This document shows positions 2,416 through 36,002 of a stretch of DNA of 64,000 bases, one piece after another. The stretch comes from Paraglaciecola sp. MB-3u-78 (GTDB taxonomy: Bacteria > Pseudomonadota > Gammaproteobacteria > Enterobacterales > Alteromonadaceae). The notes beneath the pieces were generated by a model, which saw nothing but the letters and a program-made list of their open reading frames with translations, had not been told where the DNA came from and ran no database searches. The position numbers and the translations under genes are program-made. Within the stretch, counting starts at the first letter, position 1; every line of letters begins with the position of its first letter. The stretch is from contig NZ_PJCF01000012.1 in NCBI RefSeq assembly GCF_002835935.1, forward strand, positions 124,001 to 188,000. Reading direction: 5' to 3'.

Positions 2416-3265
2416 TCAAAGTCTAGATAGTGGGCTCATCACTGAATTGCCACCCCTCTGTAAAATGTGAGTATAGATTTGGGTGGTACGTAAATCGGCG
2501 TGGCCTAGTTGATCCTGAACAGTACGGATGTCTGCGCCTGATTGTAGGAGATGGGTGGCACAAATTTGTCTGGAGCTAAATTTGAACATCCGCAGGATGG
2601 CCCGAAGGGTAAAATGAAAGGACGCATTTTATAAAACTATGGCGTAGGGTGTGTGGAGTGACGTGTTTGTCTATATTAGCTTTACTGGTTGCAAAGATAA
2701 TATTACGTTGTATTTGTTTTTCATTGATATGGTGGCGCCTAAGCTTTTGGTTTTCAGGATCAATACTCAGTTTTGAAGAGGGAAATAAGTATTGCCAGTT
2801 CAAACTTTTATTGGCAGACGGGAATTTTAATTGCAATGCGTGAGGCATCCAAACACCAGCAAATTGTGTATTGTTTAAGTCTAATTGCAGATATTGCTTT
2901 ACCTTAGCAATTTGGCTGTGAATAGGATTTTCTAACTCATTCGCAAGGGTAACAACTCGATGTTTTCCGCCCTTGCCATTCCATACTCTTACGCAATGGT
3001 AGTCAAAACCGATATCTTTTACCCTGAGTCTAACGGCTTCCATCAATCTTAATCCGCTGCCGTATAGCAAACTTGCAAGCAAATAATAATTGGCGTTAAT
3101 TTGTTCAAGCAAATGTTTAACTTCGTCAACGGTTAATACCACCGGCAACTTTTGTTGGCGTTGGCTGCGAACAAAGTTTAGTTTCAACGTCAACGGTTTT
3201 TGAATAATGACCTTATACAAAAAACTCAGCGCATTTAACGCACCTGCTTGCGTCTGTGCTGCCAC
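2416..3265 (-). pseudogene. Broken integron-type integrase (IntI family)
   Basis: This is a tyrosine recombinase of the integron-integrase subfamily, lacking its N-terminal core-binding domain. The catalytic arginine region reads LLYGSGLRLMEAVRLRVKDI, and the IntI-specific insert is visible as LQLKFPSANKSLNWQYLFPS. The HxxR box is VTPHTLRHSF. At that point a 73-nt stem-loop element (2561-2633) interrupts the frame. Beyond it the C-terminus resumes in another frame as [20 protein letters not shown] and ends ...[19 protein letters not shown] at 2416-2418. Removing the insert restores [11 protein letters not shown]. The start used here follows an in-frame stop, so the 5' truncation is real. A second, complete integron integrase lies at 14.3-15.2 kb. 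Confidence 0.85.
2561..2633 (-). repeat. Three-hairpin dispersed element, copy C (in intI fragment)
   Basis: A 73-nt insert, oriented on the minus strand, folds as three successive hairpins: TAAAATG/CATTTTA, CATCC/GGATG and CAAATTT/AAATTTG. The first two are separated by ACCCTTCGGG. It is inserted between GTTT and TGCC of the integrase gene, exactly after the HSF codons. Sister copies lie at 3475-3544, 18139-18210 and 35931-36002. Confidence 0.85.
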
Positions 3266-3447
3266 TTAGCCCGACCAACCACTACATGTTGTGTTTACTA
3301 GATTTAACCTCGATGCCACTTTGCTGACCTAATGTAGAAACAAAAACGCAGCCTTTAAGGACTGCTTTGTGCCATAAAGGGCCATCCAAAATTCATTTTT
3401 TTTATTTTTTGTACGGCAAATTTGCCGCCATTGCGGACAGTCGAGGG

Positions 3448-3858
3448 TGAGGTTAAGGTTATAGAGAGTATCGACAAATCGGCAGGTAAGTCGATTTGCA
3501 CAGCGCATGCTGCCCGTAGGTTTAGACACAGGGATGTGTCTAATGAACATCCATAGGTGATCCAAAAGATACTCAGTTATCTGAATATAAACAATGACGA
3601 AATCGTCGAAATATTGCCCCACAAAAAAGAGCACCGCCTCAGATTAGTCTGTTTGAATAAAAGCAATATTCAGAGCTGGTTTGCACAACAGCGGGAGGCG
3701 CTTGTTTCCATTTTAAATTCTGTGAAAACAGCTGAGTAATAGGCGAGAAGCGTCTGACTATCGCTCTTTCATTGATATGAAAAAGAGGTGAAATTGAAAA
3801 CTTGAGCTAAAGTATATTTTAAAACTTATGAAAAATGACGCTTTATTTTACTTATACC
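3448..3858 (+). pseudogene. 3' remnant of an IS91-family element
   Basis: The sequence matches the 3' end of the IS91-like element at 17.5-19.3 kb. It covers the last roughly 45 codons of the transposase (KILSYLNINNDEIVEILPH, compared with KILSYLNTKNNEVVELLP in the other copy) and the shared non-coding tail, which ends in TTTTAC-TATAC near 3858. The homology stops at the same point as at about 19336, which marks the element terminus. A 70-nt three-hairpin element is inserted in the coding remnant at 3475-3544. The left edge joins a sequence with the GCGGACAGTCGAG motif of the dispersed intergenic repeat. Confidence 0.75.
3475..3544 (-). repeat. Three-hairpin dispersed element, copy D (in IS91 remnant)
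   Basis: This is a 70-nt insert oriented on the minus strand. Hairpin 1 is TTAGACAC/GTGTCTAA with loop ATCCCT, followed by ACCTACGGG. Hairpin 2 is CAGC/GCTG and hairpin 3 is CAAATCG/CGATTTG. The flank on its 5' side is GTTC. Comparison with the intact IS91 copy at about 18.99 kb shows the extra sequence and its limits, with one or two bases of uncertainty. Confidence 0.8.
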
Positions 3859-3892
3859 CAAAGGTTGTGATGACTCCAGACGGGGAAATATA

Positions 3893-4558
3893 ATGTCGAA
3901 ACGAACATTCTCAACCAAGGATTTGGCGCAAGACCCAAGTCGGCCGGCGGGCTTTATATATAAGCAGACTGAGACCCGTACTTGGAAGCATGAAACCTAC
4001 ATGCATCTACGCGCAAAGATAAAAGCAGACGCTCCCTCGCCCTGTTACATAGAAACAACCACTCAGAAATTGATTAAGACGTACGAGTCAATCAGGGTGT
4101 GTAAGTTTCAGGCAATTCGGAAAGCAATTGCTTCCCGTTTCATGATAGGTGTGGGGGGGATATTGGTGGTTGCTGGCTTCGCAATGGTTGTTGTCGGACT
4201 CACCTTTCTCTTTCCCCCCGCCGGCGCAGCTTTAACTGCCGTTGCAGTTTCCAAAGCAGCTCTCTTGGTAACCGTAGGGGGTGGTTTGGCGGTAGGCGGA
4301 GGAATGGTGTTACAGAAGAACATCGATGCTAAGGACAATCCCTGGAGAGTGGGCCCACCACTCGGTTGCGATCCCTGGGAGAACTGGAAACTTGTTAAAA
4401 CAGACAACGTTAACGGACCGTTTGATCGTAGGCGTGAGATCGATTGCGGGCGGATTTATACTCAACCATTTCTTGGCATTGACCCGCCAACTGAACATGA
4501 AGGTACTGATGTTGATTCCGCAGACGAGCCTGAAATTGAGGTTCTCGAAGAGGGGTGA
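3893..4558 (+). CDS. Unknown protein with glycine-rich double membrane hairpin
   Basis: I do not recognise this 221-residue protein. The first 80 residues are basic and soluble-looking. Residues about 85-140 form two hydrophobic, glycine- and alanine-rich stretches (GVGGILVVAGFAMVVVGLTF and LLVTVGGGLAVGGGMV) joined by FPPAGAA, which suggests a membrane hairpin or glycine-zipper. The tail is soluble, with a cysteine at GCDPWENW and another at DCGRIY, and it ends in a very acidic stretch. The start is the ATG shortly after GGGGAAA. It stands alone between an IS91 remnant and a MITE-like repeat. A pore-forming or effector role is possible but unsupported. Confidence 0.55.
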   Translation: MSKRTFSTKDLAQDPSRPAGFIYKQTETRTWKHETYMHLRAKIKADAPSPCYIETTTQKLIKTYESIRVCKFQAIRKAIASRFMIGVGGILVVAGFAMVVVGLTFLFPPAGAALTAVAVSKAALLVTVGGGLAVGGGMVLQKNIDAKDNPWRVGPPLGCDPWENWKLVKTDNVNGPFDRRREIDCGRIYTQPFLGIDPPTEHEGTDVDSADEPEIEVLEEG

Positions 4559-4664
4559 CAGTAGGGGGCCATTCGGGGACATGACAAAAGCAGGAATCAA
4601 GAGGAATCAAGGGGTCAAGAACACTTGAAAACCGACTAGTAATTAAAAGTCCGCTCTCGGCACA

Positions 4665-4830
4665 GGCTGTGTGAAAACCCCAAAAAATTAAGGGCGCATA
4701 GGATAACGTTGCACTTTCGCATGATAATTACCCGTAATTTAAGAATGATTCTCCACAATAGGTGAGTATTTGATCAAAAACATAACTAAAAAACCCACCT
4801 ATCTTTGAAATGGCTGTTTTTCACACAGCC
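4665..4830. repeat. MITE-like element with GGCTGTGTGAAAA inverted ends
   Basis: A segment of about 166 bp is bounded by perfect 13-bp inverted repeats (GGCTGTGTGAAAA and its complement) and has no coding capacity. A relative with similar ends lies at 12599-12752. The ends look like insertion-sequence termini, so a non-autonomous element is likely. A clear target duplication was not seen. Confidence 0.5.
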
Positions 4831-4957
4831 AGGGCACTTTCTCGTCAAAAAACAATACTGAAAATCAACAAATGCTTAGGTCAGCTATCAGGCATTTTTT
4901 GACTTTAAACAAGAATACTCAATGACGGAAAAGTGCCTAAATTTTCATTTTTTGAAT

Positions 4958-5030
4958 GACCGCTATCTTGGGCAAAGGAGTCGTTCGGCTAATGACGGCT
5001 TTGTCGGAATTCCCGTCCTTAAGATGATTA
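4958..5030. repeat. Dispersed intergenic repeat (GGGCAAAGGAGTCGTTCGG type)
   Basis: The segment contains TTGGGCAAAGGAGTCGTTCG followed by a TTTGTCGGAATT block. The same blocks recur near 13930-13990, and degenerate versions occur near 23570-23610 and 23680-23700. All copies are intergenic and none is coding. Confidence 0.6.
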
Positions 5031-5083
5031 ACTTGTTTGTCTGCTTTTCGCTCATTGCCGTCAGTCACATTTGATTAATCGTA

Positions 5084-5144
5084 TGATGATTTTTGGCTCA
5101 ATATAGTCTGATAGTTCGAATTCTCTTACGACCGCTATAGGTCG
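5084..5144. repeat. 61-bp dispersed repeat, copy 1 (inverted copy at 17333-17393)
   Basis: The 61 bp from TGATGATTTTTGGCTCAATA to CTATAGGTCG recur in inverted orientation at 17333-17393. By eye there are two mismatches. Neither copy lies in a gene. Confidence 0.85.
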
Positions 5145-5313
5145 TTACCTCCCCTTTTGGGCTGCGAACTAGACTGATAATTTATCGCGTAAATCAGTTT
5201 AACTGTAGTGACTCCGAATGACGGGTATTGGCACATTTAAGCCCTTCAGTATGCAACGTTAATTCACTTATAGAGTTAAGATAAAGCCCATGCAGACTCC
5301 ATAAAACATAATT

Positions 5314-5508
5314 TTAAAAAGGTAAAAGTATGTACCAATCAGGCGAGGATATTATGCAAATGCAGAGAATGGCCTCCAATAAAATTATAATTTTTGTCCT
5401 TAGTTTGTCCAATCCATCTAAGTAAATGTGTGTTTTCTCATAGGTTTCTTCAGTCTTAACGAAGTTAATTCCTTCGAAGCATTGAAACACCCAGCGCAGG
5501 GTGTGCTG
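5314..5508 (-). pseudogene. C-terminal remnant of an IS1634/IS4-like transposase
   Basis: The minus-strand frame reads LRWVFQCFEGINF and continues about 45 residues to a stop. The motif RWVFQCFE also occurs near the C-terminus of the intact IS1634-type transposase at 6843-8444 (ARWVFQCFENITV), and the DNA is similar there. No start, catalytic core or second end is present, so this is a decayed tail of a different copy. Confidence 0.5.
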
Positions 5509-5803
5509 GAATATGCAGTATTAAATGTAAGTCTTATTTGGATGCTTCCGCCACAATTCTTAATGTATGGAGATCGCCATAGCGGACAGTTGAAGATTTC
5601 ACCTGTAAAATGGCGCTGCAGGGTGACAATATCCATCCATATAAGAGCAATTAAATCCTCACTTATTTTCATAACTACCGTGAATTTCTCGCCACTTGAT
5701 AATATTTTTATGGATTTCTTCAAATGTTATCGTCGAATCTATTATGGTTCGGTCCAGTCGATAGAAGCCTTTGTCATTCTAAAACGAAAATAGCTGCGCT
5801 CTA

Positions 5804-6772
5804 TCAAATAATGTCAACCATTCCTCCTTTGGCAACATTGGTGCGCTGCCCATACCGAATAGCCATTCTTTCGGACTTCCAATTACCCGCTTGGATGATT
5901 TTTATTAACGGTCTATTTTGTTCTGTCATACTGACGGTTGCACCAACCCTTGTTGAATGGCAGCTGTAACTTATTTTGTTATCTAAATACCTAGAACCAC
6001 CAAAATTTTTAAACGTCTTGTAGATAGCTTGATAACCCATAGTTTTTTGTTGTACGGTTTGTTTCGGTGATAGCGTTCTAAAAATAAACCTTTCTGTGAT
6101 CCCCGATGCGTTTAACCACTCGTCAAGCAATATAATGGTTTTAGGCGATATGTAGCCATAACTCCCTTGTCCTTCCTGGTCTGTCTTTGAATATGAGGCA
6201 AACACAGATCCATGCTCTCTATCGATGTGTGCCACTTCAATCTCCGCCAAATTCGATGCCCGAAACAAGCTGTCAAAAGCAAGATTAACCAGCAGTTTAT
6301 TGCGTATATCCAACAGTGAGAGGGGGTTAAATGTTTCATTGAGCGCCACTAAAACCTCTGCAGTAACTGGATTTGCCTGTGTTTGCGCTGCTGGCTTTTT
6401 TTTGAGTTTGTTTGTTATAAAATCACGTAATAGCTTGGAGTGTTTGAACGGATCCGGTAGTTCTGCAATACCGATAAAAAATTTAATTGAACTGAGTTTG
6501 CGTTTAATTGATGCGTTTTTAAGGTCTGATGCCATGAGTGAAACAAAGTATGTTTTGATGGTGTCTTTCGTCACTCGCCAATCATCACTCATACTCACTA
6601 ACCCGTGTTTTAAACAAAAAGATAAGTAATGTTCAAAATCACTTAAGTAGGCCCGTTTGGTATTACTGGCCATATCGTCCAATAGGTCGTGTTTGAATTC
6701 TTCGAGATTAGCTAACACTTGTGACCGAACAGTTTCATCAGAAATGTCACTCACGCTCATCAAGTCAGTCAT
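5804..6772 (-). CDS. Tyrosine recombinase / site-specific integrase
   Basis: The product is 322 residues with the two-domain plan of lambda-integrase-type recombinases. An N-terminal SAM-like core-binding domain (NTKRAYLSDFEHYLSFC, about 37-53) is followed by a catalytic domain. Catalytic candidates are the arginine in SLFRASNL, the HxxR box in SCHSTRVGAT, the tryptophan in AGNWKSERM and the nucleophilic tyrosine in IRYGQR close to the C-terminus. It is not of the integron type, because it lacks the IntI insert. It is transcribed away from the IS1634 element, whose left end lies about 60 bp upstream. It may mark one end of an older genomic island. Confidence 0.85.
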   Translation of the reverse strand: MTDLMSVSDISDETVRSQVLANLEEFKHDLLDDMASNTKRAYLSDFEHYLSFCLKHGLVSMSDDWRVTKDTIKTYFVSLMASDLKNASIKRKLSSIKFFIGIAELPDPFKHSKLLRDFITNKLKKKPAAQTQANPVTAEVLVALNETFNPLSLLDIRNKLLVNLAFDSLFRASNLAEIEVAHIDREHGSVFASYSKTDQEGQGSYGYISPKTIILLDEWLNASGITERFIFRTLSPKQTVQQKTMGYQAIYKTFKNFGGSRYLDNKISYSCHSTRVGATVSMTEQNRPLIKIIQAGNWKSERMAIRYGQRTNVAKGGMVDII

Positions 6773-6829
6773 TTTATCTCCATTTCAATTATTCTAGATA
6801 ATTAAAATTATCTGGAATAATAGCCGATC

Positions 6830-8567
6830 TTCCGCACCCACTTTAAGAATAAATTCTCCGGTATACATCACCAAGGCAATTAATGATGATGTGTTGTCGT
6901 TCTTTTAAGTTCATCACCAGCGGAATGTGTTCAGCTTGATACAGAACTGTAATATTTTCGAAGCATTGGAAAACCCATCGAGCAGTGGGTGTTTGGCTTG
7001 GCTTTTTTTTCTGGTCGGGGAAGTAACACGCCTTGTCTTTGAGTGTTTTGCGGATTTGATGCTCTAGACTGGCGTACACCATTAAACAACTGGTCATGAC
7101 CATCAGTAAGGCTTCAATACGTTCTGGCTTCTTGAGGTAAATGGCACTGGTTAGGAAGTCGGGACTTTTTAAGAAACGAAAGCCTTTTTCAACATTTTGC
7201 TGGGCTTTGTAGCTGCTGAGTAAACTGGCCATATCCAAATCATCACTGACATCATTGGTGGCAATAATGAACAGTCCGAGTTGCTGTAAAGCGGTTTGGC
7301 GTGATATCAGAGGTGTGCATAATTCGCCCGTGATTTGATATTCAATGCGCGTGGGTAATTCGCCTCGTTTAGGTCGTCCTGCGTTTGCATATACCGCCAC
7401 TTCAATTGCTCGGGCATTGACATCACACACGGTTTGTTTACTTCGCCATTTTACAATGGCGCTTTGTGCATCTTGGACGCAGGCAAAGCGTTGTTGGCTT
7501 AACTGTTTGAAGCTTTTTCGCGCTTGCTCGCCGGCTTTTAACATGCGCTTGTTTAAGTTGTGTTGCTCACGCTTGTAAGCCTGCTCACTGCGAATGAGTA
7601 ACCATGTTTGTTTAACACCGCCATATTCGCTGTCATAACTGACGCCTTCATAGCCTTGGGAAATAGGGGTAAACAGTAAAGTGGGGGCTTGTGCAACCAG
7701 TGCCTTCGCTTCTCTCAGTGTTTGCGGCACCCGCGTGATAAATAATTGACCTTGGGCGTCTAATTCCTCAATCGTTTCTTTGACATAAAGCGCCGCATCG
7801 GCCACTAAATAGCGGCTGGCTTGAGCCGCTTTTAAACTACCAATATGCGCCTTCACAATCTGTTTAAAGCCTTCCATATCATTGTTGTTGCCACTGGCGG
7901 GCTTCATGTACACCGGAATACCCGACTGGTTTTCGCAAATGAGATTTAATATCACCTGATTGAGCTCAGGGCGATGGTCACGTGAATAGCCTTGGGCAAT
8001 GCGAATGTGTCCAAACTCACCCACTGGTGTGGCTTGGCCATCATAATGGAAACTAGTGGAGTCGAGATGCACCGCTTGGCAATCTAACCCTAGATGATTG
8101 ACCACCCGCTCGCCTATGCCTTGGTAAAGAGAGGATACGCCCTTGTCGTAAAGTGCATCCAAACATCGCCCAAGCGCATCGTCATTAATATCATCGGCAG
8201 ATATTCCTTCCCCGAGCAAACGGTCAAGCGGTTTGCTTTCAAAATATTCACTGTACATATGCAAAGTGCGACCGGTAAAACCTAAACCATTGAGTAGCAT
8301 CGCCACGAATAATTGTCCAAAGCTGACTTTACGCTCATTAGAGCCACCTAATGCATCATCAATGTATTGTGCAAGTTGAATATCTTTACAAAATCCAGCG
8401 ACAAGGCCAAGGTGATCGAGGGATTTGGAGGAGGGGTAAGTCATTATTTATAGCTCTCAAAAGAGAGTAATAGATCAAAACTGGGGATCGGCGTCAAGGT
8501 GTTTTTAACAAACCCACATCAAGTGGTCAATTAATAACCAAATTCAATTCTAAATTTAGGTGCGGAA
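6830..8567 (-). mobile_element. IS1634-family insertion sequence
   Basis: The element has inverted ends that start TTCCGCACC (6830) and close GGTGCGGAA (8567), and a single transposase gene fills the interior. Similarity of the ends continues imperfectly inward (TTTAAGAAT versus TTTAGAATT). I do not see a convincing target duplication, so it may have lost one flank by rearrangement. Confidence 0.75.
6843..8444 (-). CDS. IS1634-family DDE transposase
   Basis: The 533-residue transposase begins with the DUF4277-type region (SLDHLGLVAGFCKDI, FGQLFVAMLLNGLGFTGRTL) and continues with the DDE core. The first aspartate lies in VHLDSTSFHYDG (about 129), the second in YLVADAALYVKET (about 218), and the glutamate in QQNVEKGFRFLKSPDFL (about 424). 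A C-terminal block ARWVFQCFENITVLY follows. The length is normal for the family and the frame is open throughout, so it is potentially active. It fills the IS bounded at 6830 and 8567. The ATG used lies close to the right inverted repeat, as is usual. Confidence 0.92.
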   Translation of the reverse strand: MTYPSSKSLDHLGLVAGFCKDIQLAQYIDDALGGSNERKVSFGQLFVAMLLNGLGFTGRTLHMYSEYFESKPLDRLLGEGISADDINDDALGRCLDALYDKGVSSLYQGIGERVVNHLGLDCQAVHLDSTSFHYDGQATPVGEFGHIRIAQGYSRDHRPELNQVILNLICENQSGIPVYMKPASGNNNDMEGFKQIVKAHIGSLKAAQASRYLVADAALYVKETIEELDAQGQLFITRVPQTLREAKALVAQAPTLLFTPISQGYEGVSYDSEYGGVKQTWLLIRSEQAYKREQHNLNKRMLKAGEQARKSFKQLSQQRFACVQDAQSAIVKWRSKQTVCDVNARAIEVAVYANAGRPKRGELPTRIEYQITGELCTPLISRQTALQQLGLFIIATNDVSDDLDMASLLSSYKAQQNVEKGFRFLKSPDFLTSAIYLKKPERIEALLMVMTSCLMVYASLEHQIRKTLKDKACYFPDQKKKPSQTPTARWVFQCFENITVLYQAEHIPLVMNLKERQHIIINCLGDVYRRIYS

Positions 8568-8611
8568 TGACAGATAATAGAGCAAGGGTGGTGCGTTGGT
8601 CAACAAAAAAC

Positions 8612-8886
8612 GTTACCTGTAACAGATGTTATACGTGGGGTAGTGTGATGCGAGTTTTATTTAATTAAATTGTTACAGGTAACAATAAATGCATAAAACT
8701 ATCCAACCTTAGGTATTTTGTCCCGAATTTGGATCTATCATATTGTTACCTGTAACAAAAATTATAAAGGGAACGGATGCGCTTTGTGATGTGAATAAAT
8801 GTTACAGGTAACAAATAACTGTATTTTGATAGACAATGTAGTAATATTTTTATATCGACTATTATTACCTCAACGTTACAGGCATC
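8612..8886. promoter_or_regulatory. Array of GTTACCTGTAAC palindromes upstream of MatP-like gene
   Basis: Four perfect copies of the 12-bp palindrome GTTACCTGTAAC (its complement is GTTACAGGTAAC, the same motif in centre-flipped form) lie at 8612-8623, 8672-8683, 8745-8756 and 8801-8812. A degenerate fifth, GTTACAGGcatc, starts at 8875 and abuts the start of the next gene. Most copies extend to TTGTTAC...GTAACAA. Centre spacings are about 60, 73, 56 and 74 bp. I saw no further copies in the window. They look like operators or iterons for the RHH protein encoded at 8893. Confidence 0.9.
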
Positions 8887-14265: not shown

Positions 14266-15234
14266 CTAAATTTTATCCATAGGGCTTTGTGTATTGCCAA
14301 ATTTAGTCCCAATCACATGTGTATAAATTTCTGTTGTTTTAACATCGGCATGACCTAGTAAGTCTTGAACCGTTCGAATGTCAGCGCCACTTCGTAAAAC
14401 CTGGGTAGCAAATGAATGTCTAAATGTATGGGCTGTTATTCTTTTAGCGATATCTGTTTTTATTACAGCTTGTCTTAACTGCTTTCGATAAGCGGTTTCA
14501 TGAATATGGTGACGACAGACATACTCGTCATAGGGGTATACACACCGAACAGAAGAAGGAAAAACGTGTTGCCACGACACATCTTTGGCAGTATTACCAT
14601 ATTTTCTGATGAGTGAGGCAGGCAATGATGTCAATCCATGACCTTGTGCAACATCGCTCTTGTGGATCTGTTTCGCGTACTCTATTTGCTTTATCAAGGC
14701 GTCATCAAGAGTTTTTGGCAGCAACGAATATCTATCTTTGCCACCCTTACCTCGGAATATAAATACAGTATGGTTGTCAAAATTAATATCTTTTACACGT
14801 AACTTTAGTGCTTCATTTATTCGCAAGCCGCAGCCATACAGCAAAGCAGTAATAAGCCAATACTTACCTTTCAAATGCAATAACACTTGCCGTACTTCCT
14901 GCTCACTTAATACACAAGGCATGCGTCTTGGTTGCTTGGTAAATGAATAAGCTAAGCCTACTATTTCTCGCTTTAGGATGTGTTTGTAAACAAAAATTAA
15001 TGCACACAAAGCCTGATTTTGAGTCGAACTACTAACCTTCCTCTGATTTGCGAGATAGGAAAGGAACGGCTCTATCTCTGCATTACACATGTCATTAGGG
15101 TGTCGTTTGTCATTAAAGTAGATAAAGTTGCGTATCCAAAACAAATACGATTTCTCAGTTTGCAAACTATAGCGTCGAACGCGGAGTTCAGCTCTTATGC
15201 TTTCAATAAAAGGAGATTTTGGCACGATTATCAC
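14266..15234 (-). CDS. intI: Integron integrase (IntI family), complete
   Basis: This 322-residue tyrosine recombinase catalyses attI x attC and attC x attC recombination. The N-terminal domain is complete (SIRAELRVRRYSLQTEKSYL, about 11-30). The catalytic domain shows LLYGCGLRINEALKLRVKDI (catalytic Arg), the IntI-specific insert LPASLIRKYGNTAKDVSWQH, the box AHTFRHSFATQVLRSGADI (His and Arg), LLGHADVKTTEIYTHV (His and nucleophilic Tyr) and the typical ending SPMDKI. In integrons, intI points away from the array, so any attI and cassettes should lie above 15234. That stretch holds only HipBA, with no clear attC. Cassette-like genes with attC-like sites appear near 38-42 kb. It differs in sequence from the broken IntI at 2416-3265. 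Confidence 0.93.
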   Translation of the reverse strand: MIIVPKSPFIESIRAELRVRRYSLQTEKSYLFWIRNFIYFNDKRHPNDMCNAEIEPFLSYLANQRKVSSSTQNQALCALIFVYKHILKREIVGLAYSFTKQPRRMPCVLSEQEVRQVLLHLKGKYWLITALLYGCGLRINEALKLRVKDINFDNHTVFIFRGKGGKDRYSLLPKTLDDALIKQIEYAKQIHKSDVAQGHGLTSLPASLIRKYGNTAKDVSWQHVFPSSVRCVYPYDEYVCRHHIHETAYRKQLRQAVIKTDIAKRITAHTFRHSFATQVLRSGADIRTVQDLLGHADVKTTEIYTHVIGTKFGNTQSPMDKI

Positions 15235-17510: not shown

Positions 17511-19336
17511 ATGTCTATTGTCAAGGATGCCAGAAGAGAGGGGACGGTAAAGTATGAACGTCATAAACCAGAGCAAACCCTTCTTTATCAAATTATTGAA
17601 AAATATTACCCGCAGTTTCTGAGCCACATGGGGCAACAAGATAAAGATTTTCCCAAGTATGTGCGGTCAGAATTTGAAGCGTACCTCAAGTGCGGTCGTT
17701 TGGAATATGGGTTTTTGCGAGTACGTTGTGAAGATTGTCACCATGAGCACCTGGTTGCATTCAGTTGTAAACGCCGAGGGTTTTAGTCGTGGTCTGCCAG
17801 ACCCAGCTGTGGTGCGCGGCGAATGGCAGAAAGCGCCGCCTTGCTGGTTGATGATGTGTTGTCACATGAGCCCATTAGGCAATGGGTATTGAGCTTCCCT
17901 TTTCAACTTAGATTTTTGTGTGTCAGTTATCCTCGCATCATGGGAAAAGTACTGGGTATTGTCTATAGCACACTTGCCACACATATCACTAAAAAACAGG
18001 CTACAACAAACAGACCGCACAAACGGGGGCGGTCACACTGATCCAACGATTTGGCTCAGCACTGAATTTAAATATCCATTTTCATATGCTCTACATCGAT
18101 GGTGTATATGCCGAAGATAACTATGGCAAAACGCGTTTAGATGAGAAACATCCCTATTTCTCACCCTACGGGCAACCTTTGGTTGTCCTAATTCATTCCC
18201 GATGAATTGGTCACCCGATAAAAGCGCCGACAAAAAGTGAACTGAGTAGTCTTACTCACCGCCTTAGCCAGCGTGTGGCTGGTTTTCTTGAGCGCGAGGG
18301 CTTATTAGTGAGGTATGATGACAATGACTACCTGGCTTTGGATGGGCTGGAAGACGATCCGATGTTGCAAATTCTCGGGTATTCAATAACCTACCGTATC
18401 GCTACAGGTAAACAGCAAGGACGAAAGGTCTTTACCTTGCAAACCATTGCACCTATGGCAGAGCAAGGGCTTGCGTCAGGTTGTGCATCAAATGTGGCAG
18501 GCTTCAGTCTCCATGCAGGTGTCATGAGCAGCGCGCAGGATAGGTGAAAACTGGAAAGGCTGTGCCGTTATATTACCCGCTCTGGGGTATCAGAAAAAAG
18601 GTTGGTAATAACGACTTACGGTAAGGTGCGCTAGCAACTAAAAACACCCTACCGTGACGGCACCACCGGTGACCGGCGCAGTCATGCCATATTTGAGCCG
18701 CTGGATTTTATTGCTCGTTTAGCGGCCTTAGTACCCAAACCCGGCTTAAACCTCACTAGATTCCATGGTGTGTTTGTGCGGGGCGGCCCTCGCGGGGTGG
18801 CCCTCCACCAAAGAGTCGGCACCGCGTGACAATAACACCAGCCTTACGAAATAAGGCAAAAAAAGCCTTGCAGACAGGGCAGGAAAAAACACGGGCACAA
18901 AAACACCAATCGATGACCTGGGCGCAAAGACTTAAACGGGTTTTTAACATCGACATTGAAACGTGTGAGCAATGCGGTGGTGCGGTTAAGGTTATAGCGA
19001 GCATCGAAGACCCATTAGTGCTCCAAAAGATACTTAGTTACCTGAATACAAAAAATAACGAAGTCGTCGAGCTATTGCCCCCACAAAGTCGAGCACCGCC
19101 TCAGATAAGTCTGTTTGAATAAAAGCCGTTCATCATCATAAGCAAAACTGGTTTTCACAACAGCGGGAGGCGCTTGTCTTGAATTCTGAATTACGTGGAA
19201 ACAGTTGATTAATAGACGAAAAATAGCCGACTTTCACTCCCTTAAGAATATGAAATAGATGTCAATATGGAAAACATGAGGCATCATGTATTTTGATTTT
19301 AGGAAAAATGACGTTTTATTTTACCTATACTCAAAA
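17511..19336 (+). pseudogene. IS91-family element with multiply broken transposase
   Basis: The N-terminal zinc-binding segment (VRCEDCHHEHLVAFSCKRRG) is followed, in shifted frames, by AESAALLVDDVLSHEPIRQW, LNLNIHFHMLYIDGVYAEDN (with residues before the insert), RVAGFLEREGLLVRYDDNDY and WAQRLKRVFNIDIETCEQCG, ending ...PPQISLFE at about 19122. Breaks occur at about 17782 (about 17 extra bases after GGGTTT), at about 18000, at 18139 (72-nt three-hairpin element), at about 18490-18600, and at about 18775 (odd GC-rich block). The non-coding 3' tail to about 19336 is shared with the remnant at 3448-3858. It is a dead element that can be read as a catalogue of small insertions. Confidence 0.85.
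18139..18210 (+). repeat. Three-hairpin dispersed element, copy B (in IS91 transposase)
   Basis: The element is exactly 72 nt. Hairpin 1 is TGAGAAA/TTTCTCA with loop CATCCCTA, followed by ACCCTACGGG. Hairpin 2 is CAACC/GGTTG with loop TTT, and hairpin 3 is CTAATTCAT/ATGAATTGG with loop TCCCG. It is inserted after GTTT of the sequence coding NYGKTRF, before TCACC. Confidence 0.88.
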
Positions 19337-29629: not shown

Positions 29630-29707
29630 CGTAGGTTGAATGGATAGGGCTTCTGCTGTAATGTAAACTATCATCACGTTCCAATAATATATCAACTAAA
29701 TTTTCCA

Positions 29708-29965
29708 ATGGTTTTGAAATCCGACAATAATTTCGATACGGTATCAGTATCACCTCAACATGCTTCGCTTGATAAGGCATGTTCAGATTTAATGATCAAA
29801 ATTCACCAAACGTTGGATTTGAGAAATGCGCCGATTAAAACTACTGTTCAGGTATTAGGCGTCACTCCGGCACAAGCCAGAAGCCTTACGAAAGGTGACA
29901 TTGATAAATTTAGTCTTTACGAACTTCAAACTTTTCTAAAGCGACTTTCAACAGATACTAAGTAG
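29708..29965 (+). CDS. Xre-type helix-turn-helix antitoxin-like protein, orphan
   Basis: The 85-residue protein resembles the HigA-like HTH_37 antitoxins: TTVQVLGVTPAQARSLTKGD (about 45-64) is the helix-turn-helix and DKFSLYELQTFLKRL (about 66-80) the following helix. Antitoxins of this type normally follow a RelE/HigB-like toxin gene. Here the upstream sequence is the end of an IS element and a palindrome, so the toxin was probably lost to the insertion. The ATG follows a weak Shine-Dalgarno sequence. Confidence 0.65.
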   Translation: MVLKSDNNFDTVSVSPQHASLDKACSDLMIKIHQTLDLRNAPIKTTVQVLGVTPAQARSLTKGDIDKFSLYELQTFLKRLSTDTK

Positions 29966-30065
29966 ATGGGAATTCAAAACTCGCCGGAAGTCTCATTCCG
30001 ACATTAGCACCAAACATTTTCACCCCTCTTGATTAAGAACGCAATGAACTGTCGGGATGAGAACT

Positions 30066-30617
30066 CTACTGCGGTTTTGAGTCAAATTGGTCAAAACAAT
30101 CGCCATAAGTGTTGCGTAAGCTGCCGTCAGGATCGTGGACTTTGACTGTATCAGCAGACCAATTAAGAAAGACCACGTTTTTACCCTTTGATTTGGTGTA
30201 ACTTGGCACGATAAGCGCGTTGACCCTAGATTGTCGTGCACGCTCAAACAATGTCCATCCGCGACGTTGACTATTAGGTAGTAACCATCCACCACTGAAG
30301 TAAGCGCGAGTGTCGGGATGGTCAACGGCATTTAATACCCTGTCACAGGTGGCTGTATAGGACAAAAGTACGACGGGATCAATAAGGGTGATGCCATCGC
30401 CAGCGGCCTTACTTTCATACATTGCAGTGAACTGGTCGATGCAGGTGTAAAGTGCTGCCTGGCCTTTGGGGTTAAAGCGACCTCCTCGCGATTTCGAACC
30501 ATCACCACTTAACGGGGCATAAGCCCATTTTAGGCTGTGTACGCGATAGACTGTCTGATTAATTGAGTCGCCCTGGGTGTGTTCAAAGTCACCTATGAGT
30601 TCATCAATCAAGCTCAC
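30066..30617 (-). CDS. RES-domain toxin (NAD+-degrading)
   Basis: RES toxins phosphorolyse or hydrolyse NAD+ and stop growth. The 183-residue protein shows VYRVHSLKWAYAPLSGDGSK with the catalytic Arg-Tyr pair, RGGRFNPKGQAALYTC (the RES R-G-G-R-F-N block, about 44-59), the glutamate in QFTAMYESKAAGDG, and SYTATCDRVLNAVD. The C-terminal part NALIVPSYTKSKGKNVVFLN is typical. The length is close to the family's. It follows its antitoxin gene with a 4-bp overlap (30614-30617). Confidence 0.85.
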   Translation of the reverse strand: MSLIDELIGDFEHTQGDSINQTVYRVHSLKWAYAPLSGDGSKSRGGRFNPKGQAALYTCIDQFTAMYESKAAGDGITLIDPVVLLSYTATCDRVLNAVDHPDTRAYFSGGWLLPNSQRRGWTLFERARQSRVNALIVPSYTKSKGKNVVFLNWSADTVKVHDPDGSLRNTYGDCFDQFDSKPQ

Positions 30618-30985
30618 TCGAACCCGCCTGCCTCTTTCATGCCGATGTAGTCGTTTATCGCAATCAGTCCCTGGCTGCCGAATTCGCGCAGAACTTCAGA
30701 GGCTGACTTGTTATCAAATGCCGGAATGGGTGTACTGCGAAACCACAGCCAGCTGCGCTCTTTGGAATAGTCGAACCATGGAGATATTCGCTCAATGATG
30801 GCGTGAATATCTTGCAAACGAGATTGCACTTTGATTGACTGAAACCGGTCGGTACGTTTTAGCGATGTCTCTGGCAGACCTGCAGAGAAGGCCAGCGTTT
30901 CCATATTGGTATGCAGTTGTTCAACCCATTTGCGCGGGTCTTCTATTTCAGAGCCGTCAGGCATTTGTGAGAATGTAGAAAGCAT
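30614..30985 (-). CDS. Antitoxin partner of RES toxin (Xre/MbcA-ParS-like toxin-binding domain)
   Basis: The 123-residue protein lies directly upstream of the RES toxin, overlapping it by 4 bp, which is the standard order of RES-Xre modules. The C-terminal half (RISPWFDYSKERSWLWFRST, PIPAFDNKSASEVLREFG, GLIAINDYI) matches the toxin-binding domain of the MbcA/ParS/Xre antitoxins, with the signature W-F--TPIPAFDN-----L-. The N-terminal half is less typical than an Xre HTH. Autoregulation is expected but no operator was identified. Confidence 0.82.
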   Translation of the reverse strand: MLSTFSQMPDGSEIEDPRKWVEQLHTNMETLAFSAGLPETSLKRTDRFQSIKVQSRLQDIHAIIERISPWFDYSKERSWLWFRSTPIPAFDNKSASEVLREFGSQGLIAINDYIGMKEAGGFE

Positions 30986-31508
30986 AGTGACGCCATTTGT
31001 GACCAGTAATATGTCGAATTATATGTCATAATGTTGGCAGTGTCACCAATATTCACGAAGAGTTGGAAGCAACATTCAACCTAGACTAGGTAAATTAAGG
31101 ATCCACATTCTTTTTTCCTAAGGCATGAGACGATAGTTTCACCATATTAATGGCATCATGAATTCCATGGTGATGGGAACCCTTTTTAAAGCATAAACGG
31201 AAAGGAGCGCGAAGGGGAAAGTAATCAGGACGAAGTACCAAATTTAGTTGTAAATGATTTTCATTTGCTACAAGCCAAGTCGACCTTATGTTTAAGAAAA
31301 CCCAAAATTAGAGAGGATTTTTTAGCGGTCTGCGTATCTTTTTTATGATTTTAAGAAATAGCCTACTCTGTAATTGACGAGTAACCATCCATAATCTCAC
31401 ATTTTATTTTTGCTTATGTAACTCTAAGAGATAATAAAAGAAAATTATTAAATGGAATGTATGAAATTAGCGGGGAAAGACATGTTAATCTTCCCCTAAC
31501 AAAATTAG
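30986..31508. other. Intergenic, nothing recognised
   Basis: About 520 bp without a supported frame or repeat. The part just above 30986 presumably holds the promoter of the RES-Xre operon. Confidence 0.5.
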
Positions 31509-31919
31509 TCAGCTTATTTCGTATTTTTTTTGATCCTGCCCTTCCTGCACCTTCCAACATGCCGTTGCTGCATCTGGGTTTGGCTCATTGGAAATTTTAA
31601 TAAACTCACCAGAAATCGAGAATACCTCAGCAATATCAGCTGAAGTGAAATACTTATAGCAAGCAATATCTCCCCATATAGGTAGTGATCCCCCTGTCAT
31701 CGAATAGTGAGTAACGATTTTTTCAGCAATAGCCATGCGATGTCTCTCTTGATCGGCATTAATCACGAAAGGTAACAAACGTAACCGTCGTTGGTTCTCG
31801 CATAGCCCCATAACAAAAAACGACTCGCGTTTATGCTCAAAAAACGTTTCGACAAATAAAAAGGGGCAAAACTCACTCTGTTTCTTCTTTGGAAAGGTAA
31901 TAATGTTGTCGTTGCTCAT
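31509..31919 (-). CDS. Unknown 136-residue protein
   Basis: A good Shine-Dalgarno (AAGGA) precedes the ATG by a normal distance. The protein begins MSNDNIITFPKKKQSEFCPF and contains FVINADQERHRMAIAEKIV and SLPIWGDIACYKYFTSADIA. It has no signal peptide or membrane span. I do not recognise the family. It lies alone, between the RES-Xre module and an IS4-like gene. Confidence 0.5.
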   Translation of the reverse strand: MSNDNIITFPKKKQSEFCPFLFVETFFEHKRESFFVMGLCENQRRLRLLPFVINADQERHRMAIAEKIVTHYSMTGGSLPIWGDIACYKYFTSADIAEVFSISGEFIKISNEPNPDAATACWKVQEGQDQKKYEIS

Positions 31920-32406
31920 GTGATGTCCTTAATAAACAGGGTCAAAATTAAACAAGACAAAGTGCCTTAAAGTTCTCATGCAATAATGCAAGAGCACATC
32001 TTACTCATTATTTGAGTAAAACCACCTTACAAAATAATAATGCAGGTTGGTGAAGTCTGGCGACTTTCTCTTGATGAAATGTTACAAAATTTACAATACA
32101 TTCATTTCATATAGATGTCTAGACTTCTATATTTTTTTCAGCAATTCTCGGTAAGTGTTAGGATCAGTGCATAAATTCGCTTGTTAGCCAATTTTTTAGT
32201 GATTCACTGCTCCATAACTTAATTCAAGCAGCTTTTATTCTGTTTCACACACGTAATATTCTACGATTGCGCGCATTATAAGGCATATCGTCAATTTAAG
32301 GCTTATAACGATATTCCTCCGAAGGCTCAGGGTTTGATAATAAGTTATCAAGCAAATCTTCCCATGAATCAAATAATAAGAAACGAACGGTGACTCGCAA
32401 GTTTTC
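31920..32406. other. Intergenic, nothing recognised
   Basis: AT-rich stretch, with no supported gene. It should include one end of the IS4-like element whose transposase starts at 33618, but no convincing inverted terminal repeat was found. Confidence 0.4.
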
Positions 32407-33618
32407 TCATAACTGTCTTTTAGACCCATAAGTAACTCTACAGGCTTGATACTTTTTATCCGTCAGTTCAAATATCTGATGAAAATAAAAGGCTAACAGA
32501 GTTAAAATGTACATGTTGTCGCTGAGATAATCTTTACCATGACCATAGTTATGAGTAAGGTGGTAACCTTGATTTTTTAGGGTGTTAAAGCATTCATTTT
32601 CGATCTTCCATCTACAGCGCCCTGCATTAACCAATGTTTTAATATTATCTCTCGTGACGTTAACGTCAGTGACCCAGCTATTTTGAAAGGTAATTTTACC
32701 TTGGCTATTCGTGAGTTGATATTCCAGCCAGTTCACCTCTACGGTATTCTCTTTTCCGTTCAGCGGTATTTTGTTTTGCCAACGATAATTGTGTGTTCGT
32801 TCTTTATCATCTTTATATTGATAGCTAGGAATTTCTTTGTAGGCTGATATCCACTCCATCATATAGGTGTGATCGTCGGGCTTTGCGACATAAAGGTAGT
32901 GCATGGCTTGTTTGAGGGTTTCTTCTATCATAGGTTGATGAGAAAAGAGTCCGTCACCACAAATCATTAATCCTAATTTTGGGTGGCGTTCTCGTAATTG
33001 GCTTAGAAAGCGCTTGGTTGCATTGAGCTCACAATCTTGTTTTTTTGTTCCGTCTTCGTTTCTTATAATTTCAGGCATCATGGGGATAACTTGGCGTTGT
33101 GAAGGGTGCATGATAGCCCCCTGTAATACGCTATGGCTGTAACTTGTCACCCCATTTTGATGTTGCTTAGTTAGGCAATGCTCACAACTGACTTTTTTTG
33201 AACTGTGGTATTGGCTGCCATCAACTGAGCATAAGTATATCCCAGGTATGACTTCAAATTCTTTAAGATGATGATGACGCCTGAGCTGTTCAAACATATG
33301 ACTAAAGACATCACTAAAATTTTCAGTGGGGATTTTATCGAGAACGTCCCTTAATTGCGTATCTTTGGGAATATCTTTCACTTCAAAGAGTGTTTTAAGG
33401 TTACTGCTTTTTAATTTATTTTCTAAGCGTTGCTGAAAAGCCAAAAAGGAAGGGTCTTGAAAATACATACAAGCAAAGGCACTCATGACAATATCGTGCT
33501 GGCTATAAGTAGATTTATTTTTATCTCTTGTTTCAGGTATTGCTTTGAGCACAGCGGAAAATGATTTCCTCAATGCGGTAAAACTCAGATGTTTCTTGGG
33601 TTTAGTGTGTGTAGTCAA
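32407..33618 (-). CDS. IS4-like DDE transposase
   Basis: The 403-residue transposase has an N-terminal region (FSAVLKAIPETRDKNKSTYS, DIVMSAFACMYFQDPSFLAF) and a DDE core: SVDGSQYHSSKKVSCEHC (first Asp, near 150), LGLMICGDGLFSHQPMIEE (second Asp, near 216) and RCRWKIENECFNTLKNQGYH (Glu, near 340, with the Y-x2-R-x3-E-x6-K-like spacing of IS4 relatives). The C-x2-C pair next to the first aspartate is a feature of this subgroup. The frame is intact. Terminal repeats of the element were not found. Confidence 0.85.
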   Translation of the reverse strand: MTTHTKPKKHLSFTALRKSFSAVLKAIPETRDKNKSTYSQHDIVMSAFACMYFQDPSFLAFQQRLENKLKSSNLKTLFEVKDIPKDTQLRDVLDKIPTENFSDVFSHMFEQLRRHHHLKEFEVIPGIYLCSVDGSQYHSSKKVSCEHCLTKQHQNGVTSYSHSVLQGAIMHPSQRQVIPMMPEIIRNEDGTKKQDCELNATKRFLSQLRERHPKLGLMICGDGLFSHQPMIEETLKQAMHYLYVAKPDDHTYMMEWISAYKEIPSYQYKDDKERTHNYRWQNKIPLNGKENTVEVNWLEYQLTNSQGKITFQNSWVTDVNVTRDNIKTLVNAGRCRWKIENECFNTLKNQGYHLTHNYGHGKDYLSDNMYILTLLAFYFHQIFELTDKKYQACRVTYGSKRQL

Positions 33619-34224
33619 ATGTGTGCCAGATAGATATATTATTAGTTTTGTTTTTGATCTGATCTTAGGTGCGGTAAAAAGTTCAAAAAATATAAATAAT
33701 ATTTCTGAACGGGTAAAGGAGGGTAAGTCAGCGCGACAAAATTTTTTTCATGTTCGTTCTGAGGCACTGTTTTAGTGGGATTCATTGATTAGCGAGAACT
33801 GCTGTATTTTTTTAGAGCAATATTAATAGACGAGACCAAATCTAATTATTAATAAATGCAGGTTCTTTATGCTATATACGACGATATGCGTGATGTTTTG
33901 TTATCAGCAAACAATCAATTAGAGATTATTATGTAATATATTGATGCATAGATTAAATATTATATATCTTGAACGGTTAAATTCGTCAAACGACGCTCAA
34001 TCCCCCATTTAGTATGAATAATCATGCCAACCTGAATTATCATCCAGCGTTTTTTTCAATAGCTTGCTTCGACATTCCATCGTTTTTTTAAGACTATCGT
34101 TAAGTGGCCTAAGCTCATTTTATTTAAAAAATTTAGGCTAAAGAAGACACCCATTTTTAAAAGTAGCAAAAAACCAGTTATGCCCTAAGCTTTAAGTTAC
34201 TCAAACAACCACGGATGGTCTGTT
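33619..34224. other. Intergenic, nothing recognised
   Basis: About 600 bp of AT-rich sequence with no supported gene. The only hint of structure is a GTTATGCCC block near 34175, which resembles an integron core but lacks a matching partner. Confidence 0.4.
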
Positions 34225-34643
34225 ATGCCATAGTCATGTAAAACTCAAGTCAGTTTAATTGATACTCCCTATTACCATTGTGTTTCTCGCTGTGTTCGCC
34301 GTTCTTTTTTGTGCGGTACGGATAAGTATATGGGGCAGAGTTACGAGCATCGCCGTGGTTGGGTAGAAGAGCGATTGTTGTTTCTATCGTCAGTGTTTTC
34401 AATTGGCATTTGTGCTTATGCTGTGATGAGTAATTATACGCATGTCGTTTTGTGTGTGGATAAAGACTTGGCTGAAGGCTGGTCGATGAAAGAAGTTATA
34501 AGACGTTGGCATCAGCTTTACCAAGGCACGTTATTGAGTCAAAAGTATCAAAAAGGCGGCACAATTAGTAAAGGGGAAATGATTGGTCTAGAGGAAACAG
34601 TAACGATTTACCGTCAGCGTTTATACGACATCAGTTGGCTAAT

Positions 34644-35856
34644 CAGGGCAATCGCATTAAAAATGGCTTGACACAGATCCCCTAATTTGATCTATTACTT
34701 CGCTTTACGCGACGTAATATGACCAAATACAAGCCCACACTTATCGAACATTTCAAAGACATTGAAGATCCTCGTCTTCTAAGAAAACAATTACATAAAT
34801 TAGATGACATCTTTTTTATTACCCTATGTGCCGTTATCTGTGGCTGTGATGGCTGGGTTGCCATTGAAAAATTTGCCAACATTAAACGCACTTGGTTTGA
34901 ACAATATTTATCCCTAGAAAATGGTATTCCGTCTCATGATACTTTGGGACGTATTTTTTCCTTAATTGATCCTGAGCAATTTCAAACCTGTTTTTCTAGC
35001 TGGATCAAAGAGATAGTAAAAAATGTCACGGGCGATGTGATCGCTATTGACGGTAAATGCCTTCGACGCACTCATGATAAGTCATCTAATAAATCAGCTA
35101 TTTATATGGTTAGCGCATGGTCACATGATAATCAGCTGGCACTTGGACAAGTGAAAGTTGATGAAAAATCGAATGAAATAACCGCCTTACCTTCCCTACT
35201 CAAAAACTTAGACATCACAGGCAGTATCATCACAACCGATGCATTAAACACACAAAAGAAATCGGCTGAACTGATCGTGAGTAAAGGCGCTGATTATTTA
35301 ACCGCACTGAAAGGAAATCAAAGCACCCTACATGATGATGTGATTTTATTCTTTGAAAATACCCCTAAAAGTTATGAGGGCACGTTAAATACTTATAAGA
35401 GTATTGATTCAGGGCATGGCCGTATTGAAGAAAGAACAGTGACTTCCTGCAACCGAATTGACTGGCTTACTGAGCATCATACTCACCCACACCTTGCCAG
35501 TATTGTTAGCGTCAAATCAAGAAGATTTCTTGCGAACGAATGGTCAGAAGAAACGCGATACTTTATTAGTAGCGTTAAGCATAACGATGCAGAGAAATTT
35601 GCTCACTATGTACGTGCTCATTGGGGTGTAGAGAATAATCTTCACTGGAGATTAGATATGGCATTTGACGAAGATCATTGTCGAATTCGTCAAGGATATG
35701 CAGATCAAAACATGGCAATATTACGCCACATATCTTTGAATTTATTAACGTCAGATAATGATAATAAGGTAGGTATTAAGATTAAGCGGCAAATGGCAGG
35801 TTGGGATAATGATTACTTGCTGAAACTGCTACAAATATTTTAATGCGATTGCCCTG
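34644..35856 (+). mobile_element. ISAs1-family insertion sequence with 10-bp target duplication
   Basis: The ends CAGGGCAATCGCATTAAAA (34644) and its complement (ending at 35856) are perfect over the first 18-19 bases. The flank GTTGGCTAAT occurs at 34634-34643 and again at 35857-35866. Removing the IS plus one target copy restores the RAYT frame exactly. Length 1213 bp. Confidence 0.95.
34719..35843 (+). CDS. ISAs1-family transposase
   Basis: The 374-residue DDE transposase carries the family N-terminus (LIEHFKDIEDPRLLRKQLHK, LCAVICGCDGWVAIEKF) and the core: DVIAIDGKCLRRTHDKS (first Asp), GSIITTDALNTQKKSAELIV (second Asp) and HWGVENNLHWRLDMAFDEDH (Glu region), ending DYLLKLLQIF. The frame is complete and the IS ends are intact, so it is likely active. 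It is also called a DDE_Tnp_ISAS1 domain protein. Confidence 0.95.
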   Translation: MTKYKPTLIEHFKDIEDPRLLRKQLHKLDDIFFITLCAVICGCDGWVAIEKFANIKRTWFEQYLSLENGIPSHDTLGRIFSLIDPEQFQTCFSSWIKEIVKNVTGDVIAIDGKCLRRTHDKSSNKSAIYMVSAWSHDNQLALGQVKVDEKSNEITALPSLLKNLDITGSIITTDALNTQKKSAELIVSKGADYLTALKGNQSTLHDDVILFFENTPKSYEGTLNTYKSIDSGHGRIEERTVTSCNRIDWLTEHHTHPHLASIVSVKSRRFLANEWSEETRYFISSVKHNDAEKFAHYVRAHWGVENNLHWRLDMAFDEDHCRIRQGYADQNMAILRHISLNLLTSDNDNKVGIKIKRQMAGWDNDYLLKLLQIF

Positions 35857-35930
35857 GTTGGCTAATGCGTAACCTCAATGAATACATAGTCAGAGAAGCG
35901 AATAAGGAAGATGCCTGCACTGGCAGGTTT

Positions 35931-36002
35931 TATTCGCTGCCATCCCTAGCGCTCACCCTACGGGCCAGCTAAAGCTGTTCTAATTTATTCCCGATAAATT
36001 AG
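35931..36002 (+). repeat. Three-hairpin dispersed element, copy A (in RAYT gene)
   Basis: The element is exactly 72 nt, inserted after the codons for TGRF between GTTT and TGGGAAGG. Hairpin 1 is CGCT/AGCG with loop GCCATCCCT, followed by ACCCTACGGG. Hairpin 2 is CAGCT/AGCTG and hairpin 3 is CTAATTTAT/ATAAATTAG with loop TCCCG. The limits are firm because the interrupted codons TTT-TGG read on as F-W, as in the intact family. Confidence 0.9.

Follow-up and report, generated by a model that had tools for sequence, protein, structure and literature searches.

Four copies of one element

A 64,000-nt stretch of the genome of Paraglaciecola sp. MB-3u-78 (contig NZ_PJCF01000012.1, positions 124,001 to 188,000; hereafter the window) carries four related segments, three of them inside genes for an integron integrase, an IS91/ISCR transposase and a RAYT protein. 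It is fairly likely that these are copies of one non-autonomous mobile DNA element, about 69-73 nt long, which is moved in trans as folded DNA. The element is dispersed, palindromic, non-autonomous DNA, and its most striking property is the repeated use of single bases within conserved motifs. The four copies are listed below, the ambiguous T of the border being assigned to the 3' end.

2560..2632, minus strand: copy 1, 73 nt, within an integron integrase gene, between RHSF and ATHLL (host TIGR02249, E 6.1e-87)
3474..3544, minus strand: copy 2, 71 nt, in an open reading frame without family match
18139..18211, plus strand: copy 3, 73 nt, within an IS91/ISCR-clade Ia transposase gene
35932..36003, plus strand: copy 4, 72 nt, within a RAYT subclass 2.3-type gene, between GRF and WEGRF

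Two covariance models were used: R1, built from five diverged copies of the Paraglaciecola sp. MB-3u-78 genome and trained with flanking T columns, and R2, built from 101 copies from many genomes. Each recovers exactly four copies in the 64-kb window; with filters off, R2 gives these E values of 1e-16, 4e-15, 8e-15 and 1.5e-11, and 0.37 to the fifth-ranked match. The four copies that a first-pass annotation of the bare sequence had placed here are thus borne out, as is their three-hairpin build, which is accompanied by ACCC(T/A)NCGGGC. The same annotation put every copy inside a transposase or integrase gene, which is verified for copies 1, 3 and 4 and not for copy 2, and which does not extend to many copies elsewhere in the genome; of its two IS91 genes, the one around copy 3 has family matches on both sides, whereas the one around copy 2 has none. 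It had also called for a covariance search for further copies, and many were found, in the genome, the genus, the order and beyond.

Size and distribution of the family

With R1, the source genome gives at least 77 matches at E <= 1, at least 64 of them at E <= 1e-3, from the 150 candidates that were scored out of 1,016. Matches at E <= 1e-3 occur in 28 of 40 genomes, its own included. All 22 genomes of the genus that were searched carry the element, the 21 genus-mates with 2 to 53 copies each, as do 52 of 148 genomes of the order at E <= 1e-4; in this last survey at most 32 candidates were scored per genome, so that true copy numbers may be higher. A pattern scan of 84,980 species, each represented by one genome, yielded 91 stretches, from which 80 loci, with 86 matches among them, were named (loci and genomes are designated here by L and G numbers). 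R2 confirms 78 of the 80, all gamma-proteobacterial by record title, and rejects the other two, from Bacteroidia and Nonomuraea records, where the pattern is a chance match. The carriers include Shewanella, Psychromonas, Pseudoalteromonas, Rheinheimera, Arsukibacterium, Marinomonas, Halomonas, Colwellia, Yersinia, methanotrophs and metagenome-assembled genomes, among others. In E. coli, 602 of 5,426 complete genomes match the query, 600 of them over at least 80% of its length. By comparison, one query each against plasmid and phage records gave 2 matches in 72,556 and 6 in 50,697, respectively, at E <= 0.01, and none of these records spans 80% of the query. Since the plasmid and phage matches are few and partial, the element seems to reside mostly on chromosomes.

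Many copies of the source genome lie beyond recognised genes, as inverted pairs or tandems, within other repeats or in DNA without assignment (the table of contexts has 76 rows: from 79 matches, the partial copies in L055, L079 and L080 and a weak match in L066 were removed, and a tandem copy was added). The inverted pairs have a spacer of about 19-25 nt, head-to-tail arrays are also seen, and in L010, L012 and L018 one element is nested in a second one in the opposite orientation. Among the families of Rfam 15, only a SAM riboswitch located elsewhere matches the window at the gathering score, and copy 4 gives nothing above chance; three core strings of the element did not occur in the literature texts searched. 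The four segments belong to one large and real family.

A fold conserved by covariation

From 5' to 3', the element consists of A(T/C), hairpin 1 (loop TCC), the sequence ACCCTTCGGGCC or one close to it, hairpin 2, GTTC, a long hairpin 3 and a T; the ACCCTTCGGGCC stretch can itself close into a small hairpin. Taken singly, the DNA folds of the four window copies beat their shuffle means with z from -1.8 to -4.3. The gain is slight for copy 4 (z -1.8), so the case rests on the family evidence. Among 101 distinct copies, 92.4% of 2,173 cells are paired, a figure favoured, like paired cells in general, by the alignment of the copies to the model's own structure. Changes on both sides are seen in 21 of the 22 pairs; such double change affects 492 cells, where shuffles give 129, and 0 of 500 shuffles reached the observed value. 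The stems are maintained by Watson-Crick covariation, and it is the fold, not the sequence, that is conserved, as had been proposed from the four copies.

RNA families commonly pass through G·U as a stepping stone between Watson-Crick pairs. Here, apart from the pair closing loop 1, G·U makes up 14 of 1,925 standard pairs, and the cells that are not Watson-Crick comprise these 14 and 160 others. This near-absence of G·U suggests that selection or copying takes place on DNA, and the fold probably acts as DNA.

Borders and insertion site

The borders are best seen in E. coli, where three filled places were examined. In strains ECCWS199 and PV15-279, 71 nt lie inside the ERIC repeat between panC and rpnC; in strain 2020CK-00188 the same ERIC is empty and joined as ...GGGGAT^TCACTC... 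(the caret marks the insertion point), with only one T ambiguous, and the empty locus (L257) has no R2 match. In strain HSP60 an ERIC near ybfA holds the same 71-nt unit at this base. Relatives follow GGATT in an ERIC-like repeat of a Klebsiella phage record, and in Yersinia aldovae an element whose hairpin 1 is of a different type also follows GGATT in an ERIC-like repeat. All five of these loci (L255, L256 and L258 of E. coli, L253 of the phage record and L152 of Yersinia) are R2 matches of 69-71 nt. A site therefore either holds the complete element or lacks it to the base, and nothing longer than a single ambiguous T could be duplicated; both the exact borders and the lack of target duplication had been anticipated from the window, and the empty and filled E. 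coli loci differ by exactly 71 nt.

Removal of near-identical or short flanks from the 101 aligned copies left 70 non-redundant contexts, in 56 of which the element is 69-72 nt long. The target in these contexts is Y-T^S, with T 66% and C 19% at -2, T 84% at -1, a value somewhat inflated by the T-rich flanks with which R1 was trained, and C 57% and G 33% at +1; there is no clear base preference beyond these positions. Independently of the model, the E. coli, RAYT and integrase junctions agree with T at -1. The site initially described, GTTY before and T after the insert, fits the four window copies but does not extend as a rule to the 70 contexts. No fold was shared by the targets at 15 typed sites, and no guide-like base correspondence between target and element was found in 54 of the 70 contexts.

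Such sharp borders in 70 non-redundant flanks bear on a reading that we hold to be improbable, in which the copies are old passengers that were multiplied with their hosts (IS91/ISCR, RAYT-2.3, group II introns, ERIC) and never moved by themselves. The empty ERIC at the same E. coli locus also speaks against it, and so does the fact that Marinomonas and Endozoicomonas have different hairpin-1 types at one RAYT base. It has in its favour that the RAYT copies of L229, L230, L231 and L233 share their set of inserts and are plainly copies of one broken gene, that a single hairpin-1 type is common to the RAYT inserts of Shewanella, Psychromonas and the host genus, and that two integrase genes of G154 are 90% identical (60 nt) downstream of the element and 60% upstream, as local gene conversion would give.

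A working insert, of an intron, translational bypass or in-frame peptide type, with the host gene still functional, is hardly credible. When flanks were joined and reading frames checked at 119 places (the 86 named matches and 33 of the 76 genome rows), some interrupted genes were otherwise open on both sides, such as the RAYT genes of L121 (332 amino acids with the flanks joined) and L147 (353 amino acids), and the integron integrases of L161 and L172 were open up to the insert. However, the many copies outside recognised genes and the scarcity of G·U do not suit such a function. Splicing, bypass and in-frame insertion are rejected, with a small doubt left, in view of lengths of 69-73 nt that follow no frame rule, stop codons inside the element, antisense copies in genes and other lesions in some of the interrupted genes.

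Repeated use of single bases

Several host positions have been hit more than once. The RHSF^ATHLL base of the integron integrase, occupied by copy 1, is also hit in Paraglaciecola (L161) and Arsukibacterium (L172), and the two integrase genes of G154 (L259 and L260) carry an identical 70-nt element there. The identity of this pair, 60% upstream (300 nt), rises downstream to 90% over 60 nt and 82% over about 150 nt, so that local gene conversion is possible in place of two insertions. The truncated integrases L261-L263 have no element at the RHSF/ATHLL motif.

The assignment of RAYT genes to subclass 2.3 relies on the YVDLNP motif and on length, not on the profile of Quentin et al. (PMC6006769). 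The RAYT-2.3 genes found are mostly uninterrupted. Twelve of the 80 named loci have an element at the GRF^ side or a near form of it; they come from Shewanella basaltis, Psychromonas, Marinomonas, Endozoicomonas and two metagenome-assembled genomes. The RAYT sequence resumes past the element, at KSQA, in 11 of these 12, the exception being L109. Of 20 loci retrieved to inspect this site, 19 from the genus and one from elsewhere, at least 15 show it occupied (L234-L236 being covered in part). At this site a single hairpin-1 type is shared by the genus, Shewanella and Psychromonas, and Marinomonas and Endozoicomonas have other types, so that several separate insertions at one RAYT base are likely. 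Antisense copies are found within the HUH motif of RAYT in L229, L230, L231, L233 and L240.

Another type of host is a reverse transcriptase gene. The sequence of L048 up to the insert matches RVT_1 (1.7e-11), and its best family is the group II intron maturase (1.5e-13, under the cut-off of that model); L044 has a similar flank, but alone it has no family match. The insertion point in this group II-type enzyme reads GF^DFLGY.

The RAYT genes of the genus contain other small inserts as well. A 14-nt palindrome around GTAGCCGCGCTAC, present in both orientations and with a TA duplication, occupies two recurrent places, after FLCG in L230, L237, L238 and L243 and after AID in L229, L231, L233 and L239. 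The RAYT gene of L232 holds a longer insertion whose ends are inverted (ACCAATTACAGTAAATAATTG...) and which is probably flanked by a TA duplication; it is a separate miniature inverted-repeat transposable element (MITE).

The element might represent a hitherto unrecognised class of non-coding 'homing' hairpin DNA: some structure-reading enzyme would place units at fixed bases of conserved motifs, different sites having different hairpin-1 lineages, and the units would be hyperparasites that silence other mobile elements. The sites in question are RHSF^ATHLL of the integron integrase, GRF^WEGRF of RAYT, GF^DFLGY of the reverse transcriptase, GGATT^C of ERIC, and ISCR. We regard this as possible but rather unlikely.

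Search for the mover

Among the 148 genomes of the order, Y1_Tnp (PF01797) was found in 65, RAYT-2.3 in 50 and an integron integrase in 75. Kinship being ignored, all three are enriched in the 52 carriers (Y1_Tnp, odds ratio (OR) 2.4, p 0.016; RAYT-2.3, OR 3.0, p 0.003; integrase, OR 2.9, p 0.003). Y1_Tnp or RAYT-2.3 is present in 38 of 52 carriers versus 44 of 96 non-carriers (OR 3.2, p 0.002, again ignoring kinship). This like association for all three enzymes suggests that it reflects a general richness in mobile DNA. The co-occurrence with RAYT or TnpA that the first-pass annotation suggested looking for does exist as a positive association (OR 2.4 to 3.2), but the integron integrase matches it (OR 2.9).

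The same annotation had attributed the inserts to a HUH Y1 enzyme. On this account, which we find doubtful, they are REP-like or IS200/IS605-like units moved single-stranded by RAYT or TnpA, and their hairpins at both ends and lack of target duplication fit the type, as does the commoner presence of Y1_Tnp or RAYT-2.3 in carriers. Within the genus, copy number rises with the number of RAYT-2.3 genes (Spearman 0.51, p 0.016), and G005, the sole member without RAYT-2.3, has the fewest elements (2), so that RAYT-2.3 is not to be dismissed from the genus alone. However, both Y1_Tnp and RAYT-2.3 are missing from 14 of the 52 carriers, including G147 with its 32 or more copies (an earlier loss of the enzyme is possible), and 9 carriers, among them the high-copy genomes G147 and G161, have none of the three enzymes. 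The genus-mates G003, G006, G002 and G018, with 42, 23, 13 and 12 copies, have no Y1_Tnp match; their RAYT-2.3 matches number 3, 19, 8 and 1. The 11 Y1_Tnp loci of the source genome, about 3 kb each, contain no R1 match.

RAYT-2.3 genes often have other ends. In 31 loci (L196-L225 and L121), GGACACCCA or a near form stands upstream in 20, compared with 388 of 6,200 random windows from the same loci, and TGGATGTCC or a near form, the partner of the TGGNTGTCC type, stands downstream in 12. These are likely RAYT-2.3's own element ends, unlike those of the 72-nt element. For subclass 2.3, a flanking REP-like structure is described as not identifiable in PMC6006769.

Replication gives no support to a Y1 enzyme either: in eight single-contig genomes, the terminus being taken as the point opposite dnaA, there is no strand bias among the 150 matches listed of 281 (81:69, p 0.37; 70:66 after thinning of neighbours). 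The GTAG of REP sequences is not conserved and, as said, the integron integrase associates in the same way. A Y1 HUH mover is thus possible, but not supported.

A further candidate is the integron integrase (IntI), which might move the folded element as it does attC hairpins. IntI is found in 35 of 52 carriers and 40 of 96 non-carriers (p 0.0035), and its own gene is a repeated target. The idea is nevertheless very improbable. IntI is missing from 17 of the 52 carriers, the ends A(T/C)...TTTGT lack the attC core GTTRRRY, and the T^S breakpoints are unlike the G^TT crossover.

None of the three candidates was retained as the mover: RAYT-2.3 frequently has different ends and is absent from 26 of the 52 carriers, the Y1_Tnp of Pfam has no match in genus-mates with up to 42 copies and no element in its loci of the source genome, and the integron integrase is lacking in 17 of the 52 carriers.

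Preferred explanation

We favour a folded DNA element that would be moved in trans by a strand-transferring enzyme other than the Y1_Tnp or RAYT-2.3 counted above. Its junction with the target is at Y-T^S, both orientations occur inside genes, and copies within IS91/ISCR, RAYT and ERIC would also be carried along as these repeats multiply, making same-site copies commoner. In its behaviour it resembles a small non-autonomous element that a precise strand-transfer enzyme puts in place. Several points weigh against this explanation. No mover was found among Y1_Tnp, RAYT-2.3 and the integron integrase, and the sequences offer no sight of live transposition. A three-base target does not explain why insertions recur at one base of the integron integrase, of RAYT and of ERIC. 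Lastly, the pairing figure and the T at -1 both owe something to the alignment to the models.

Relation to known repeats

ERIC/IRU is a 127-bp palindrome with a TA duplication; the element lies within ERIC yet is separate from it, and does not conform to its definition. Insertions of about 70 bp at specific internal ERIC/IRU sites were reportedly described by Wilson & Sharp in 2006 and De Gregorio in 2005, and we take these, by description and not by sequence, to belong to the family of the window element. They resemble the copies of 69-71 nt after GGATT in ERIC-like repeats of E. coli, the Klebsiella phage record and Yersinia. They differ in that the element is not confined to ERIC or to Enterobacteriaceae: it is also found in transposase, integrase and reverse transcriptase genes, in itself, in pairs and in tandems. 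On this comparison of descriptions, the ~70-bp ERIC insertions are the closest named relatives. Passages of PMC3733652, PMC6006769, PMC2229807, PMC2267715, PMC3091717, PMC2759123, PMC8266576 and PMC10969869 contain no mention of such insertions.

REP sequences are defined, in a passage of PMC8266576, by a conserved GTAG or similar tetranucleotide 5' of the palindrome. Of 101 cores, 17 carry the A needed to read GTAG on the opposite strand and 58 have T, the pattern leaving 26 unclassed. The element shares with REP/REPIN and their RAYT the dispersed palindromes, at times in inverted pairs with a 19-25 nt spacer. It differs by its three hairpins, its length of about 72 nt versus 20-40 nt, the lack of a conserved GTAG, its absence beside the Y1_Tnp genes tested and its occurrence in genomes without detected RAYT. 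No REP-like flanking by the element was found with R1 in the 11 Y1_Tnp loci, the RAYT-2.3 flanks being checked by eye, not by model.

Elements of the IS200/IS605 type show an orientation bias relative to replication. Like them, the window element is inserted precisely on the 3' side of a short flank, causes no target duplication and has hairpins near both ends, but it shows neither this bias nor a visible dependence on Y1, and only about one base separates its hairpins from the ends. Unlike a classical MITE, it has no terminal inverted repeats (A(T/C).. versus ..TTTGT) and no target duplication beyond the ambiguous T. Integron attC sites end in RYYYAAC ... GTTRRRY, which the terminal bases of the element do not fit.

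The RUP element of Streptococcus pneumoniae, according to passages of PMC2229807, is often inside IS transposase genes, and so resembles ours as a small non-coding element in such genes; as described there, it has IS630-Spn1-like terminal inverted repeats and TA targets, and our element has neither. The preference for transposon genes in the window thus has a precedent, and may simply reflect the tolerance of multi-copy transposon genes to insertion. The palindromic elements of Rickettsia, also covered by parts of PMC2229807, are likewise palindromic inserts inside genes; they are 105-146 bp long and fused in frame, whereas the element, 69-73 nt long and with stops inside, breaks the gene.

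With these data, a repeat common in gamma-proteobacteria, E. coli included, would gain a defined unit, defined ends and a testable insertion rule. The unexplained ~70-bp insertions said to occur in ERIC would gain a family, and the repeated hits in integron integrases would be one concrete route to the inactivation of chromosomal integrons. The exact E. coli empty/filled pair turns the search for the enzyme into a laboratory question.

Host genes and other features of the window

The genes interrupted by copies 1, 3 and 4 are recognised from the following parts.

2618..3274, minus strand: integron integrase, portion upstream of the element (TIGR02249 positions 56-273; the last bases extend into the element)
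2416..2559, minus strand: integron integrase, portion downstream of the element (by translation; end set by a stop codon)
17511..17783, plus strand: IS91/ISCR transposase, N-terminal zinc-binding part (PF14319, 7e-13; NF052416, 3e-31)
18275..18544, plus strand: IS91/ISCR transposase, portion downstream of the element (NF052416, 1e-15)
34243..34656, plus strand: RAYT 2.3-type gene, N-terminal part (query residues 4-141)
34719-35843, plus strand: ISAs1-like transposase gene (PF13808, PF01609), which also breaks the RAYT gene of copy 4, upstream of the element
36040..36471, plus strand: RAYT 2.3-type gene, C-terminal part (query residues 167-318)

The open reading frame around copy 2 gave no match in protein-family searches, and relatives that share the flanks of this copy are found on the other strand from the IS91 inserts in L055.

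A short insert of the TTACGGCAAGAAGG type, about 13-14 nt long, is present at about 36035-36048, after KSQA of RAYT and some 30 nt downstream of the element. Inserts of this type after KSQA also occur in L030, L031, L237 and L238, and another form occurs in L240 and L242. A second, uninterrupted integron integrase gene (14272-15210, minus strand; TIGR02249, E 1.6e-115) is located about 11 kb from the interrupted one, which is itself adjoined by a short tandem CTTAAC run at about 2328-2353. The SAM-I/IV riboswitch of the window (RF01725, 53 bits) lies at 31959-32082 on the minus strand.

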